Shown: positions 2,787-9,021 of the stretch, piece by piece | How the letters are laid out: each line of letters starts with the position of its first letter | Position numbering within the stretch: the stretch's first letter is position 1 | NCBI GenBank assembly: GCA_024276305.1 | Contig: JAJRXK010000059.1 | Span: 1-35,780 of the forward strand | Direction of reading: 5' to 3' | From: Candidatus Krumholzibacteriota bacterium | GTDB lineage: Bacteria; Krumholzibacteriota; Krumholzibacteriia; JAJRXK01 | DNA length: 35,780 nucleotides | Made by a program: the position numbers and the translations under genes | The notes under the pieces: generated by a model | The model's input: only the letters and a program-made list of their open reading frames with translations | Database searches by the model: none | Told to the model about the DNA's origin: nothing

Positions 2787-3515
2787 TCAGTACCCTCCGG
2801 AGGCAAGACGCTTCACCAATTCCAGGAACGGTTCCCATTCCATGGGTCCGACCTTTCGAAACACCTGCCGGCCTTCGCGATCGAGGGCGATCAGCGTGGG
2901 AAGGGCGGTGACCCGAAAGTATTGGGCGGCCTCCGGCGATTCGTCGGTGTCGACTTTCAGAAAACGAAGGGCCGCCAGGACCCGCTGGACGTCCTCCCGA
3001 GCCAAGACCTCGCGGTCCATCTTCTTGCAGGGCCCACACCACGTGGCGTGAAAGTCGATCAACAAGATCTTGCCATCGGCGGCAGCCTTCGCGAGCTCCT
3101 CGGAGACCGGGGCTGGAATCACCGGACCTGCGGTGGAATCTGCGGTCGCGATCTCTTCACCGCTGGCCGGGACCTCGTCGGTCACCACCCGGGGGACGTA
3201 GCCGAGCTTCTCGATGGTCTCGAGAATCTCCTCGACCGATGAACGGTCGGGATCATGGTACAGATCGAAGGAATCATCGATGGGATGAAACTCGACCTGG
3301 AATACACCTGGCAGCTCTTCCAGAGCCGCTCGGACCGCATCGGGTCAGCCGAATCAGGTCGCGCCGCTGCGGCTCTTCATCATGCCTCCGACGTGGAGGT
3401 GCAGAGATTCCGTCGCCGCTGCGCTCAGCTGCGCGGCACTGACCAAGATGGCCGCAATCCCCAGGGCCATTGCCCATGATGGTCTGATGTTTCGGCCTTG
3501 CCCTCGAACCCTCAC
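2787..3515 (-). CDS. Predicted selenoprotein: exported HMA domain (Sec-x-x-Sec) fused to thioredoxin
   Basis: A GTG at 3513-3515 has a perfect AGGAGG six bases upstream and starts a 242-codon frame interrupted only by two in-frame TGA codons, 3354-3356 (residue 54) and 3345-3347 (residue 57). The order is a signal peptide (about residues 14-34, ALGIAAILVSAAQLSAAA), an HMA-like fold (about 36-108), and a thioredoxin domain (about 125-242) with WCGPCKKM (Cys160, Cys163) and ALPTL as the cis-Pro region. The TGAs sit exactly where HMA proteins carry CxxC: the reading is U-F-G-U followed by PDAVRAALEELPGV, and HMA has CxxCxxxVxxAL. A hairpin with a GGA loop follows (see the SECIS entry). The likely role is binding of Hg(II) or another soft metal in the periplasm, with the thioredoxin domain reducing or releasing the site. 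An automatic annotation would see only the thioredoxin part (from about 3188). The alternative is a pseudogene with two nonsense mutations, but placement at both metal-ligand positions makes that unlikely. Confidence 0.8.
3307..3333 (-). promoter_or_regulatory. Candidate bacterial SECIS hairpin
   Basis: On the minus strand, GAGCGGCTCT pairs with AGAGCTGCC around a GGA loop (loop at 3319-3321). This gives eight consecutive pairs including one G-U, then a 2x2 mismatch, then two more G-C pairs. The loop begins 23 bases after the second TGA and 32 after the first. Both distances fall inside the published bacterial SECIS window (about 16-37 nt), and the loop starts with G as that consensus requires. 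It is unusual that one hairpin could serve both codons. The region is GC-rich, so some hairpin is expected by chance. Confidence 0.55.
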
Positions 3516-3537
3516 CCTGGTCCTCCTGATAGGATGG

Positions 3538-4050
3538 TCATTCTTCGGCGGGAGAGTCCTCGACCGCATCTTCCAATTCTCGGACGACGTCGATGACTGC
3601 GCCGAGGCAGCACTTGCCCGCGGGGTTGGCAACTTCGCAGCGACAGCGCCCCGCGGCAATCTCCGCTCGAATCTCCTCGACCACCTTGGTGCGGCCGAGC
3701 TCGGCGATCTCGACCGAGATCGATCCGCGGGTGTGCCCGAAGCAGTAGCACACCGGAATCGGATCCTCGGACTCCTTCACCCCTACCCGGATGCTCAGCT
3801 CGGCCCGTGAGAAGCTTCGTCCCGACGCAGGCGCGAAGTAGACCACCTCGCAGCCCGGTTCTGAGCAGAAGTAGTGCTGCTCCTCCGTCACGCCCTGGGC
3901 CAACGAAGGAAGCACCAGGCTCCGCACGGTGCGCAACCCCACCTTCGATGCCACCACCGAGCATTCTGGGCATCGCCCAGTGGCGGTGGCCTCGCAGGCC
4001 CCCTCCGACGGACTCCCGCCGCAACAATCTTCACCTTTGGACCCGGCCAT
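3538..4050 (-). CDS. CopZ N-terminal-domain-like Zn/[2Fe-2S] protein
   Basis: This 170-residue Cys-rich cytoplasmic protein has no signal peptide. The N-terminus carries CC and a CPEC pair (about residues 10-30). The centre has YFCSEPGCEVVYF. The C-terminal half has CYCFGHTRGSI and later GRCRCEVANPAGKCC, a BFD-like four-Cys pattern. This arrangement matches the N-terminal domain of Archaeoglobus-type CopZ, which binds zinc and a [2Fe-2S] cluster. Here no HMA domain is attached; HMA domains are encoded in the flanking genes instead. I chose the ATG at 4048-4050 because of the AGAGGA upstream. It is the first gene of the minus arm, 22 bases before the selenoprotein start, behind a mer-type promoter. 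It may supply electrons or act in metal transfer. That role is inference. Confidence 0.75.
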   Translation of the reverse strand: MAGSKGEDCCGGSPSEGACEATATGRCPECSVVASKVGLRTVRSLVLPSLAQGVTEEQHYFCSEPGCEVVYFAPASGRSFSRAELSIRVGVKESEDPIPVCYCFGHTRGSISVEIAELGRTKVVEEIRAEIAAGRCRCEVANPAGKCCLGAVIDVVRELEDAVEDSPAEE

Positions 4051-4076: not shown

Positions 4077-4108
4077 AGACTAGGCCTTGCACCCCGGTGC
4101 AAGGTCAA
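4077..4108 (-). promoter_or_regulatory. MerR-type promoter for the CopZ-like/selenoprotein operon
   Basis: Minus strand: -35 TTGACC (4103-4108), a 20-nt spacer, -10 TAGTCT (4077-4082). The spacer holds a near-perfect dyad with nine-base arms, CCTTGCACC and GGTGCAAGG (4085-4093 and 4096-4104), separated by two bases. Overlong 19-20 nt spacers with a central dyad are the hallmark of MerR-activated promoters. The nearby MerR gene (6710) is the obvious candidate regulator. Confidence 0.8.
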
Positions 4109-4170: not shown

Positions 4171-4202
4171 TTGACACTGTACCCGGGTGCAACGCGTAGC
4201 TT
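4171..4202 (+). promoter_or_regulatory. MerR-type promoter for the HMA/channel/NHL operon
   Basis: TTGACA (4171-4176), a 20-nt spacer, TAGCTT (4197-4202). The spacer contains ACCCGGGT and a GGGTGCAA half site that matches the other two MerR-type promoters of this region, although the dyad is less perfect. It is divergent from the minus-arm promoter 60 bases away, so one regulator could switch both arms. Confidence 0.7.
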
Positions 4203-4235
4203 CTGCAGATGATCCTCGAGACCAGGAGTGTTCCA

Positions 4236-4772
4236 GTGTCGCCCAACCGAAGAATCCTTTGCCGCCTCGCGATCGCTTCGACCATCGCACTGCTCGTCGT
4301 GTCGGCCCCTTCCGCCAGAGCCGAAGTCGAGGAAGTCACCCTGCGCGTCGACGGCCTTTCCTGCCCCTTTTGTGCCTATAGTCTGGAAAAGAAGTTGGCC
4401 GCGGTTCCCGGGGTGACCCAGCTGACCATCAACGTCGCCGAGGGCACGGCCACCGCCGTCCCCCAGACCGACATGACCATCGAGTGGAGGGACCTGCGCA
4501 GCGCGGTGAAAGCGGGGGGATTCACGCCTCGCGAATTCCGCGTCCGCGGAAAGGGTCTGGTGAGTGCCCGCGACGACACCTTCCGACTGACCGCTCTGGA
4601 CGGCACCCCCCTCTTCGAAATGGATGCCTCGACGCTCGCTCGACAGGCAGCGCGCAGCGCCACTCCCATTTCCTTCGCGGGGACTCTGACCGCGGAGTCG
4701 ATCGAAGGCGATGCGCTACCACGGTTGGTGCCCACTCTCCTCGAGGCGACTTCCGGCGACGAGGAGAACTGA
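4236..4772 (+). CDS. Exported heavy-metal-associated (HMA) domain protein
   Basis: This 178-residue protein has a signal peptide at about residues 1-29 (SAPSARAE) and then an HMA domain with GLSCPFC (Cys43, Cys46), followed by AYSLEKKLAAVPGV in the expected helix. It is MerP-like in position and motif. The C-terminal 80 residues (about 95-178) are not part of the HMA fold and I do not recognise them. I chose the GTG at 4236 because AGGAG lies seven bases upstream and it leaves a compact signal peptide; an ATG at 4209 is possible. It is the first gene of the plus arm. It probably binds soft metal ions in the periplasm. The next gene begins four bases after its stop. Confidence 0.85.
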   Translation: MSPNRRILCRLAIASTIALLVVSAPSARAEVEEVTLRVDGLSCPFCAYSLEKKLAAVPGVTQLTINVAEGTATAVPQTDMTIEWRDLRSAVKAGGFTPREFRVRGKGLVSARDDTFRLTALDGTPLFEMDASTLARQAARSATPISFAGTLTAESIEGDALPRLVPTLLEATSGDEEN

Positions 4773-4776
4773 TCCC

Positions 4777-5670
4777 ATGCTGAAGCGACGGATCTGCCTT
4801 GGCGCCTGCACCGCTCTCTCCCTGTGGGCCGGGACTTCCTTTGCCCAGGGTCCGCCGATTCACACCGACACTCCGATCATGCTCGGCATTGAGGGACGGG
4901 GACTACGAAGCTTCGTCCAGTCCGTCCAGCGCCACGATCTTCGGCGCGATGGACGCACGATCGACGACCCCCTTCATCGCTCCGCCTCTGCCACCATCGT
5001 CCCCCTCATCCTCCCCTACAATTTCTCTCCGACCCTCCAGGTGGGGGCCGCCATCCCCTTCGTCTCGAAAGAAATGACCTCGGATTCGAGGACCCTCCGG
5101 CAGAGCGGATTGAGCGACCTCAGCCTCTGGGTCAAGAAGCTCCTGCTGCAGGTCGACGGAAGGGCCAAGACCTTCCGCATCGCCGGCAAGTTCAGCGCCC
5201 GTCTCCCCACGGCGGATTCGGATGCAGCTCTGCCTCTGGGATCCGGCTCCACCGATTTCGGGGGGAGCGTGGTCGGAGGATGGATCGAAGGACGTTGGGG
5301 CACCTACGCCGAAGTGGGCTACTGGAGGACCGGAACCCGCGGCGAGGTTTCCTACGGGGACCGCGTCTTCTGGAATCTGGCCCTGGGATTCCGAGCCATC
5401 CCCACAGTCTATCGGACCTACCCGTCGAAGCAGCTCAATCTCTTCGTCGAACTCAACGGCTCCACTTCCGGCCGCGACCGCATCGCGGGCGCCTACGATC
5501 CCGACCGCGGAGGAACCCTGGTCTTCCTCTCTCCCGGAATCCAATTCGTGGGGGGACGACGATGGCTGGTGGAATCTTCGGTCCAGCTTCCCGTCCTTCG
5601 CGACCTCCACGGGACTCAGCTCGCGACGAGCTGGGCGGCCACCATCGGTGGCCGCTGGCTCATCTTTTGA
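4777..5670 (+). CDS. Outer-membrane channel-like protein (transporter/MetA-like barrel)
   Basis: This 297-residue protein has a signal peptide ending near FAQG (about residue 24). The rest alternates short beta strands, for example SGLSDLSLWVKKLLL, FRIAGKFSARLPT and DFGGSVVGGWIEGRW, and ends in an aromatic residue (GGRWLIF), as outer-membrane barrels often do. The pattern resembles the family loosely annotated as putative MetA-pathway or transporter barrels. The ATG at 4777 follows GAGGAG by ten bases and sits four bases after the HMA stop, so the genes are coupled. Its place in a metal-response operon suggests passage of metal or metal complexes across the outer membrane, but no substrate can be read from the sequence. 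Confidence 0.7.
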   Translation: MLKRRICLGACTALSLWAGTSFAQGPPIHTDTPIMLGIEGRGLRSFVQSVQRHDLRRDGRTIDDPLHRSASATIVPLILPYNFSPTLQVGAAIPFVSKEMTSDSRTLRQSGLSDLSLWVKKLLLQVDGRAKTFRIAGKFSARLPTADSDAALPLGSGSTDFGGSVVGGWIEGRWGTYAEVGYWRTGTRGEVSYGDRVFWNLALGFRAIPTVYRTYPSKQLNLFVELNGSTSGRDRIAGAYDPDRGGTLVFLSPGIQFVGGRRWLVESSVQLPVLRDLHGTQLATSWAATIGGRWLIF

Positions 5671-6709: not shown

Positions 6710-7123
6710 ATGAATGCCTCCATCACCATCGGGGAACTCTCCCGGCAGAGCGGAGTCCCCACCTCGACCATCCGTTACTACGAGCGAGAGGGACTTCTCC
6801 GGGCGGAGGGACGCAATGCCTCCAACTACCGGGTCTACACTTCGACCTCGGTCGACCGACTCCACTTCATCAAGGCGGGACAGCAGAGCGGCCTCTCGCT
6901 CTCGGACCTGCGCATTCTCTTGGACTTTCGCGAGGGAGACCGGAGCTCCTGCGAGCAGGTGAGCGAGATCCTCGAGAGGCGCCTGGAACAGATCGAGGCC
7001 AAACTGGAGCAACTGGCCACCATGCGCGGCACTCTGCAGGGACTGCTCGAGACCTGCCACCGCACCAATCCCGCCGACGAATGCCCCGTCCTACGGGACC
7101 TCGATGCTCCCGAAGAGGCCTGA
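6710..7123 (+). CDS. merR: MerR-family regulator, mercury-type
   Basis: This 137-residue protein has a MerR winged helix-turn-helix at about residues 5-75 (IGELSRQSGVPTSTIRYYER), then a dimerisation helix (about 82-112) and a short metal-binding tail. Its only three cysteines are at 81, 116 and 125. In Tn501 MerR the Hg(II) ligands are Cys82, Cys117 and Cys126, so all spacings are identical. The tail reads ETCHRTNPADECPVL. This supports Hg(II), or a close soft-metal relative, as the effector. It sits between the two regulated plus-strand transcripts and probably controls all three long-spacer promoters at 4077, 4171 and 7136 by underwinding DNA. Zn(II)- or Pb(II)-sensing relatives cannot be excluded. 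Confidence 0.9.
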   Translation: MNASITIGELSRQSGVPTSTIRYYEREGLLRAEGRNASNYRVYTSTSVDRLHFIKAGQQSGLSLSDLRILLDFREGDRSSCEQVSEILERRLEQIEAKLEQLATMRGTLQGLLETCHRTNPADECPVLRDLDAPEEA

Positions 7124-7135
7124 CTCCCTCCGCTC

Positions 7136-7167
7136 TTGACCTTGCACCAAGGTGAAAGCCTTAGGTT
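7136..7167 (+). promoter_or_regulatory. MerR-type promoter of merTP
   Basis: TTGACC (7136-7141), a 20-nt spacer, TAGGTT (7162-7167), with an imperfect dyad CTTGCACC-AA-GGTGAAAG centred in the spacer. The half site TTGCACC is shared with the minus-arm promoter. This fits control by the MerR encoded immediately upstream. Confidence 0.8.
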
Positions 7168-7249: not shown

Positions 7250-7858
7250 ATGAAAGCACCCCAGTGGACCTCTTTGGGATCGGTGGTTTCCGCTGCCGCC
7301 GCGTCGGCCTGCTGTTGGCTTCCCCTGGTGATGGTGGCCACGGGCTTTTCCGTGGTGGGCCTCTCGACCTTCTTCCAGGCCTACCGCCCCCTCTTTCTCA
7401 CCGTCGCCGCAGTGCTGCTGGGGGCGGGATTCTACCTGAACTACCGGCCGCAGAGTCGGCACTGCGCCGCCGACGCTTCCTGCTCTGCCGCCGACCGTCG
7501 GCTTCGTCGGTGGAATCTGACCATGCTCTGGATCTCGACCGCATTGGTGATCGCCCTGGCGATGTTCCCCCACTACGTCTCCTCACTCATGCCGACGAAT
7601 GCGGCCACCTCGGGCCCGGAGCTGGCGCGGCGGGAACTCACCCTGGACATCGACGGCATGACCTGCGAGGGCTGCGAGATCGCAGTCGAAGGCGTACTCT
7701 CCGAACTTCCCGAGGTCGAGACCGTCGACGCCGACTATTCCACCGCTTCGGCCAAGCTCACCCTCGGTCCCGGTGGACCTCCATCGCGCGAAGCTCTCGA
7801 GAGGGCCCTGGGGCGAGCGGGCTATTCCCTCGGAGAGATCCGCCCCCCGAAGCCATAG
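7250..7858 (+). CDS. merT: Mercuric transport fusion protein MerTP
   Basis: This 202-residue fusion has a MerT-like membrane part (about residues 1-112) with three transmembrane segments. The first holds the vicinal pair Cys21-Cys22 (SACCWLPL). A cytoplasmic loop carries Cys72 and Cys78 (HCAADASC), with the same six-residue step as Cys76/Cys82 of classic MerT. After the third segment, an HMA/MerP-like domain (about 128-195) has GMTCEGC (Cys139, Cys142). In known systems MerP passes Hg(II) to MerT for import to the cytosolic mercuric reductase. No reductase is encoded in this window. The ATG at 7250 follows a GAGAAGAGA stretch and lies 82 bases after its own MerR-type promoter. Confidence 0.9.
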   Translation: MKAPQWTSLGSVVSAAAASACCWLPLVMVATGFSVVGLSTFFQAYRPLFLTVAAVLLGAGFYLNYRPQSRHCAADASCSAADRRLRRWNLTMLWISTALVIALAMFPHYVSSLMPTNAATSGPELARRELTLDIDGMTCEGCEIAVEGVLSELPEVETVDADYSTASAKLTLGPGGPPSREALERALGRAGYSLGEIRPPKP

Positions 7859-7962: not shown

Positions 7963-9021
7963 ATGATCTCGAAGACCGGCATCCACGCCGTCCGCGCCAT
8001 GATCGCCTTGGCCGAAGTCCCGCCCGATTCCTACCGCGGCGCTGGCGCGATCGCAGACGCGGTGGGCGCCCCCCGCAACTACCTGGGAAAGCTGCTGCAG
8101 CAACTGGCGCAGGGTGATCTCCTCGTCTCGCAGAAGGGCGCCGGCGGGGGCTTCGCCCTGGTCCGAGATGCGGATGCGATCACCGTCTTCGATGTTCTGG
8201 AACAAGTCGAAGACGTGAGTGCGTGGGAGAACTGTTTTCTGGGCAAAGCGGAATGCAGCGACGAGAATCCCTGTCACGTACACGAGCGATGGCGTCCGGT
8301 GCGCGCCGCCTATCTCGACTTTCTTCGCGGTTTCACCCTTGGAGACCTGGCTCGGGCAGGAGGACTCTCCCGACTCGAAGCCCTCCTCGACGAGGACGCC
8401 GCGGCCGTCCTTCCCCCCACTTCCCCGTCAAGGAGCGATGACATGCATCCGACCCAGACCCTGATGGACGAGCACCAGACCATCCTGCGCGTACTCCGTT
8501 GCGTGGAGGAATTGCTCACCAACGACACCCACGCCGACGAGCCGCGGGAAACCTTCGTCTCGGTGGTCGACTTCATCCGCACCTACGCGGACCGGCTCCA
8601 CCACGCCAAGGAAGAGGATCTGCTCTTCCCCGCGATGGAGGCCCGAGGAATCCCGGCCCAGCAGGGTCCCACCGCAGTGATGCGCCACGAGCACGAGATC
8701 GGACGCAACTTCGTGGCCCGGATGGCCACGCTCACCGAGGATGAGGACAACTTCGACCGGGCGGCACTCCGGGAACCGGCGCTGGGCTACGTGGAGCTGC
8801 TGCGGAGCCACATCGCCAAAGAGGACCACATCCTCTACCCCATGGCCGACCGCCTCTTCGACGAAGCCACAGTGGCTCAGCTGGCCGAGGACTATGCCGA
8901 GGCCGAGGCCGATCGCTTCGACGAGGACATCCACTCCCGCTACGAGAATTGGGCCAAGGACCTCGCGCTTCGCCTGGGGGTGGACCAGGACCGCTACGAC
9001 GTGACTCCCGCCTGCGGCTGA
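7963..9021 (+). CDS. Rrf2-family regulator fused to a hemerythrin domain
   Basis: This is one uninterrupted 352-residue frame. Residues 1-135 form an Rrf2 winged-helix regulator with a helix-turn-helix (RNYLGKLLQQLAQGDLLVS) and three cysteines, Cys91, Cys98 and Cys104 (CFLGKAECSDENPCHVHERW), close to the [2Fe-2S] pattern of IscR and NsrR. Residues 161-330 are a hemerythrin HHE domain with histidines in EHQTI, LHHAKEED, MRHEHEIG and SHIAKEDHILYP. Fusing a likely Fe-S sensor to a diiron domain suggests sensing of NO, O2 or peroxide. AAGGAG lies seven bases before an internal in-frame ATG at 8443, so a separate hemerythrin may also be made. The start is the ATG at 7963. Target genes are unknown. 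Confidence 0.85.
   Translation: MISKTGIHAVRAMIALAEVPPDSYRGAGAIADAVGAPRNYLGKLLQQLAQGDLLVSQKGAGGGFALVRDADAITVFDVLEQVEDVSAWENCFLGKAECSDENPCHVHERWRPVRAAYLDFLRGFTLGDLARAGGLSRLEALLDEDAAAVLPPTSPSRSDDMHPTQTLMDEHQTILRVLRCVEELLTNDTHADEPRETFVSVVDFIRTYADRLHHAKEEDLLFPAMEARGIPAQQGPTAVMRHEHEIGRNFVARMATLTEDEDNFDRAALREPALGYVELLRSHIAKEDHILYPMADRLFDEATVAQLAEDYAEAEADRFDEDIHSRYENWAKDLALRLGVDQDRYDVTPACG

Follow-up and report, generated by a model that had tools for sequence, protein, structure and literature searches.

A predicted exported HMA-thioredoxin fusion with a probable two-selenocysteine metal site in a MerR-type operon of Candidatus Krumholzibacteriota

Introduction

Why should a reading frame be interrupted by UGA codons at precisely the two positions where an HMA domain carries its metal-binding cysteines? 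To our knowledge, nearly all well-studied selenocysteine (Sec) residues of bacteria are catalytic. A classic metal-binding motif in which both ligand positions appear to be Sec, and in which Cys almost never substitutes among the 31 members found, would provide a testable case for selenium in metal capture, here in a mer-like setting with no recognizable mercuric reductase. The question also bears on annotation, as a gene family present in 29 of 392 sampled Planctomycetota genomes would be truncated by standard procedures. Here, we analyze such a frame in a stretch of 35,780 nucleotides (the window) from a Candidatus Krumholzibacteriota bacterium.

Results

Located on the minus strand (3515..2787), the frame runs from a GTG start (3515-3513) to a TGA stop (2789-2787) and would encode 242 amino acids. 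A Shine-Dalgarno sequence, AGGAGG (3522..3527, minus), is found 6 nt ahead of the GTG, and the only in-frame interruptions are two UGAs, both at the HMA CxxC positions: UGA1 (3354..3356), corresponding to Sec54, and UGA2 (3345..3347), corresponding to Sec57. All of these elements had been described in the initial annotation, which left the strand unstated, and all were verified. The predicted protein consists of an N-terminal signal peptide (3414..3515, minus; hydrophobic stretch AMALGIAAILVSAAQLSAAA), an HMA domain (3195..3407, minus; ...HVGGMMKSRSGATUFGUPDAVRAALEELPGV..., with the metal-site loop GM-MKSRSGAT-UFGUP), a linker, and a thioredoxin domain with a WCGPC active site (2829..3077, minus). 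When TGA is read as Cys, Pfam HMA (PF00403) scores 28.3 bits against a gathering score of 24.8 over residues 50-106, the alignment beginning only at residue 50, and thioredoxin (PF00085) scores 54 bits against a cut-off of 23.5 over residues 147-229. Since both domains exceed their cut-offs, the residues upstream of the second UGA are protein. Under the normal code (table 11), the sole thioredoxin open reading frame listed at this site is a leaderless one of 133 amino acids (3188..2787), bearing out the earlier prediction that gene callers would miss the HMA half. An AlphaFold model of the single window sequence had a pLDDT of 41 and was set aside, and Rfam gave no match above the gathering score at the selenoprotein site.

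The first relative came from a Planctomycetota metagenome-assembled genome (locus L017), with GMKKTKSGATUMGUP at the metal site and the same thioredoxin tail. Searching 392 genomes of Planctomycetota with a two-row HMA profile (E <= 1e-6) identified a UGA-bearing HMA in 29, with two UGAs within the match in 28 of them. The complete HMA-thioredoxin fusion was found at 30 loci in 28 genomes, and one additional locus (L223) has a UxxU HMA without thioredoxin. In an alignment of the 30 homologous loci and the window, the first position is U in 31/31 proteins and the second in 30/31, the exception being a Cys in locus L219. The two TGAs thus occupy the HMA ligand positions in register, as had been proposed, and the protein upstream of the second TGA is kept in relatives. 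The UGAs align to Cys of homologous domains with both flanks conserved, as in bacterial selenoproteins. Thirty loci sharing this architecture, with their UGAs in register, are more than a chance occurrence of the window's layout and, together with the Pfam domains, uphold the earlier description of a periplasmic thioredoxin fused to HMA. Export of the family proteins is supported by their N-termini: 29/31 members have a hydrophobic segment there, and 20/31 match a strict lipobox pattern. Two further observations concern individual members. In loci L220, L221 and L222 the thioredoxin part contains one more UGA (IPDTUILG), which brings each of these genes to four in-frame UGAs. In locus L216 the frame runs on past the thioredoxin into a second HMA (GMTUPDGUGTPV; after 7645, plus).

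Within the window's own phylum, the full profile (A3) run against 80 genomes returned, among the matches listed, the fusion only in the window's genome; the others aligned to the thioredoxin part, and no Cys-only form of the fusion was seen. In the tree, the branch leading to the window sequence is long and unsupported. This branch, together with the occurrence of the fusion in one of the 80 genomes (again among the matches listed), agrees with horizontal acquisition without proving it. Searches with a GATUxGUP DNA pattern were discarded as a source of further members: in the own phylum only the match in the window's genome was real, two more being noise without HMA context, and none of 24 matches in viral contigs had an HMA context. 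Among the matches listed, the HMA half found only ordinary HMA domains on plasmids.

The initial annotation had made the selenoprotein claim depend on the Sec machinery, and all four genes were found in the window's genome, which is 97.9% complete: selC (tRNA-Sec; 72 bits, cut-off 47), selB (350), selA (448) and selD (328), all above cut-off. SelD of this genome is itself a selenoprotein (locus L225, C42:67487-68416), with the UGA in AAGUAAKIAPGDLE.

A hairpin of 8 bp with a GGA loop, common to 32 sequences, lies 3' of the UGAs (3311..3329, minus, in the window). Its loop is 32 nt from UGA1 and 23 nt from UGA2, distances that presumably fall within bacterial SECIS rules for both, so that a single hairpin could serve the two codons. 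A short conserved helix of 4 bp over UGA2 in the homologues (3333..3346, minus) is absent from the window's minimum-energy fold. Since the hairpin overlaps the codons of an ALEGL motif and is thus under protein constraint, its stability was compared with synonymous recodings using family codon usage. The mean z was -2.08, with 27/32 sequences below -1; for the 48 nt from UGA1 it was -1.90, whereas eight control windows of the same genes gave -0.64 to +0.14, little or no excess of stability. The p-values of this test count related sequences as independent and are not to be read at face value; the argument is the contrast with the controls. Covariation within the hairpin was 0.238 versus 0.115 +/- 0.012 in shuffled alignments (0/500 as high), slid versions reaching at most 0.060, and double changes in its pairs numbered 22 versus 6.4 +/- 2.0 in shuffles. 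The window retains 8/8 pairs, two of them through compensatory change. Its own single-sequence z is about -1.1 to -1.4, mildly better than random; because this signal is weak, the case for an RNA element depends on the family as a whole, in which a SECIS-like hairpin downstream of the UGAs is found.

The frame continues past both UGAs, all four Sec genes are present in the genome, and the RNA downstream has a conserved hairpin; the reading of both codons as Sec is thus strongly supported at the level of sequence. The leaderless 133-residue frame of the normal code is what would be expected of a pseudogene, a sequencing error or an ordinary stop, with the HMA half untranslated and thioredoxin alone produced. 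We consider this extremely improbable given the UGAs in register across homologous loci, the protein conserved on either side of them, the RNA covariation and the complete Sec machinery; maintenance of the UGAs in homologues led us to reject both decay of the gene and sequencing error. An alternative genetic code was also rejected, as the adjoining genes terminate in TGA and the homologues retain their UGAs. The metal-gripping site of the exported protein is therefore probably built from two selenocysteines.

The selenoprotein gene shares an operon with a gene for a CopZ N-terminal type Fe-S/Zn metallochaperone (3538..4050, minus), located 22 nt upstream and matching NF047645 at 118.5 bits (cut-off 100) and zf_CopZ at 59.5 bits. 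Ahead of this operon is a MerR-type promoter/operator (TTGACCTTGCACCGGGGTGCAAGGCCTAG; 4080..4108, minus). A divergent one (4171..4199, plus) precedes a gene for a second exported HMA protein (4209..4772, plus; CPFC, Pfam HMA 38.3 bits), which is followed by an outer-membrane-type protein (4777..5670, plus; Pfam Phenol_MetA_deg). A third (7136..7164, plus) precedes a MerT-HMA (MerTP-like) transporter fusion with CEGC (7250..7858, plus; Pfam MerT 49.3 bits, above cut-off, and HMA 42.9 bits; NF033556 at 88.6 against a cut-off of 180). The window thus combines a MerT transporter with the MerR-type operator of classical mer operons. The three transcription units share the operator pattern TTGACnnTGnACCnnGGTGnAAnnCnTAG, which matches the window exactly three times and 100 shuffles not once; because the pattern was written from these same sites, the matches show likeness and are no independent test. 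Among the 31 loci, window included, MerR was found near the selenoprotein gene in 14, CopZ in 8 and MerTP in 7, counts taken from contigs of which several end early. All three accompany the selenoprotein in six loci (L199, L201, L209, L220, L221 and the window).

Additional UGAs were seen in genes near the homologues, and candidate Sec residues thus occur in the MerR of two loci and the MerTP of one. In loci L214 (8013-8378, minus; LVDSURANRSGRCRFL) and L215 (6444-6815, plus; LVKTUESTRSGRCNFL), a MerR beside the selenoprotein has a UGA at a metal-binding Cys position and is a candidate Sec metal sensor. A MerT-HMA fusion in L205 (4942-5571, minus) has one in-frame UGA in its HMA site (GMTUPQSC). 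The gene downstream in L017 (4857-6247, plus), a likely selenoprotein, carries a duplicated domain with two in-frame UGAs (LLSPTUGGCIHGA and LLSPTUGACLNGA). The window itself encodes an Rrf2 regulator in one frame with a hemerythrin-like/Fe-S repair (YtfE-like) domain (7963-9021, plus).

No MerA was found above the family cut-off in the window's genome, where the best match scored 322 against 454 bits. This match was rejected as MerA since it resembles dihydrolipoamide dehydrogenase and directly precedes a dihydrolipoamide acyltransferase gene. Nor did any MerA exceed the cut-off in 29 homologue genomes, in which weaker flavoprotein matches reached up to 417 bits. Any imported mercury would thus lack the classical reductase, a point against a mercury-trapping role.

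The MerR-family regulator of the window (6710..7123, plus; cysteines SCEQV ... TCHRTNPADECP) falls below the cut-offs of the three family models compared: it scores 104 with TIGR02051 (Hg; cut-off 150.85 bits), nearly tied with 102.6 for NF007069 (Zn-responsive) and 100.8 for CadR-PbrR (Cd/Pb). The same selenoprotein could therefore serve copper, silver, zinc, cadmium or lead as its physiological metal. The CopZ-type chaperone next to it, the second HMA protein of the window, which is nearest to CopZ models, and the lack of a MerA above cut-off all agree with such a metal, and we regard it as a real possibility, if one short of an even chance. Arguments against it are that seven loci have a MerT-type transporter nearby, that selenium has an affinity for mercury and that the cysteine spacing is MerR-like. 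Mercury is favored because of MerT, selenium chemistry and these cysteines; we infer the identity of the metal from this context.

Discussion

Based on these observations, we think it somewhat probable that an exported HMA domain with two Sec ligands, together with its thioredoxin, acts as a soft-metal trap under MerR control. With both metal-ligand cysteines apparently replaced by Sec, a periplasmic diselenolate would capture a soft, thiophilic metal, with Hg(II) as the most likely one. As the Sec pair would readily oxidize to a diselenide in the periplasm, the CGPC thioredoxin may keep it reduced; alternatively, it may assist metal release. The MerR-type regulator would induce the operon together with the genes for the CopZ-type chaperone and for the MerT-HMA transporter, and these two proteins may pass the metal onwards. 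Hg(II) binding with recycling by thioredoxin had been proposed in the initial annotation and is plausible; the MerR/CopZ/MerTP regulon speaks in its favor.

In their thioredoxin, 15/31 members, the window among these, have CxxC and 16/31 have UxxC. Sec in this domain in half the family suits a purely redox role as well. UxxU might then be the diselenide/diselenol catalytic site of a periplasmic enzyme acting, for example, on oxidized metal or metalloid species or on peroxides, with thioredoxin as an electron relay and no metal carried. Bacterial Sec is mostly catalytic, UxxU is present in a Prx-like family as well, the loop ahead of the first ligand exceeds that of the usual GMxCxxC of HMA domains by about 7 residues, and the absence of MerA above cut-off points the same way. 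The HMA fold and the MerR, CopZ and MerT neighbors, however, belong to metal-trafficking families, and we view a redox enzyme as less probable than the soft-metal trap, while treating it as a serious rival.

The soft-metal trap could be part of something wider. Selenium-based handling of soft metals (mercury) without MerA may be organized in a MerR-controlled operon in which Sec replaces Cys in the exported trap and, in half the members, in the attached thioredoxin as well; in some loci it would also do so in the MerR sensor and the transporter. Such a system would be spread across Planctomycetota and reach at least one genome outside that phylum. We put this forward tentatively, as an idea that is less likely than not to hold.

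How much of this is new? As far as the accessible portion of a 2026 review (PMC13188914) goes, it lists NF041115 as "Metal-binding protein (putative mercuric reductase), UxxU, 2 Sec", attributes the UxxU metal-binding protein to Zhang and Gladyshev 2007 and includes MerT, P-type ATPase and CopZ-type proteins that carry Sec; the HMA-thioredoxin fusion was not found in that portion. Sec-containing MerP had also been seen in the GOS survey (two sequences; PMC2398784). In NCBIfam 20.0, the window protein reached no model's cut-off among the matches listed. The term "unannotated" used for this locus at the outset therefore seems right for the HMA-thioredoxin architecture and was too strong for the UxxU HMA family, for which NF041115 already exists. 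Judging from NCBIfam and the available part of the review, the UxxU HMA selenoprotein is known, while the exported fusion to thioredoxin, like its operon, seems not to have been described before.

The closest known model is NF041115 (UxxU_metal_bind), which shares an HMA-type domain with Sec at both ligand positions and matches 31/31 members at E <= 0.01. The window protein scores 39 bits against its curated cut-off of 95, and, unlike this model of 74 positions, the window's family adds a signal peptide or lipoprotein leader, the thioredoxin fusion and a longer site loop. MerP and MerTP (TIGR02052, NF033556) resemble the window in the exported HMA, the MerT transporter of the regulon and the MerR-type operator, but the window has UxxU for CxxC, an attached thioredoxin, a separate MerTP gene and no MerA above cut-off. 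In the MerT/CopZ fusion-like heavy metal transport selenoprotein (NF045683) and in CopZ_Nterm_CU (NF045877), Sec likewise occurs in MerT/CopZ-type metal proteins, whereas the MerT and CopZ genes of the window have Cys and the Sec is located in the HMA-thioredoxin. Finally, thioredoxin and DsbD C-terminal type domains (PF00085, PF13899) have the WCGPC active site and export in common with the window protein, in which the domain is fused behind an HMA.
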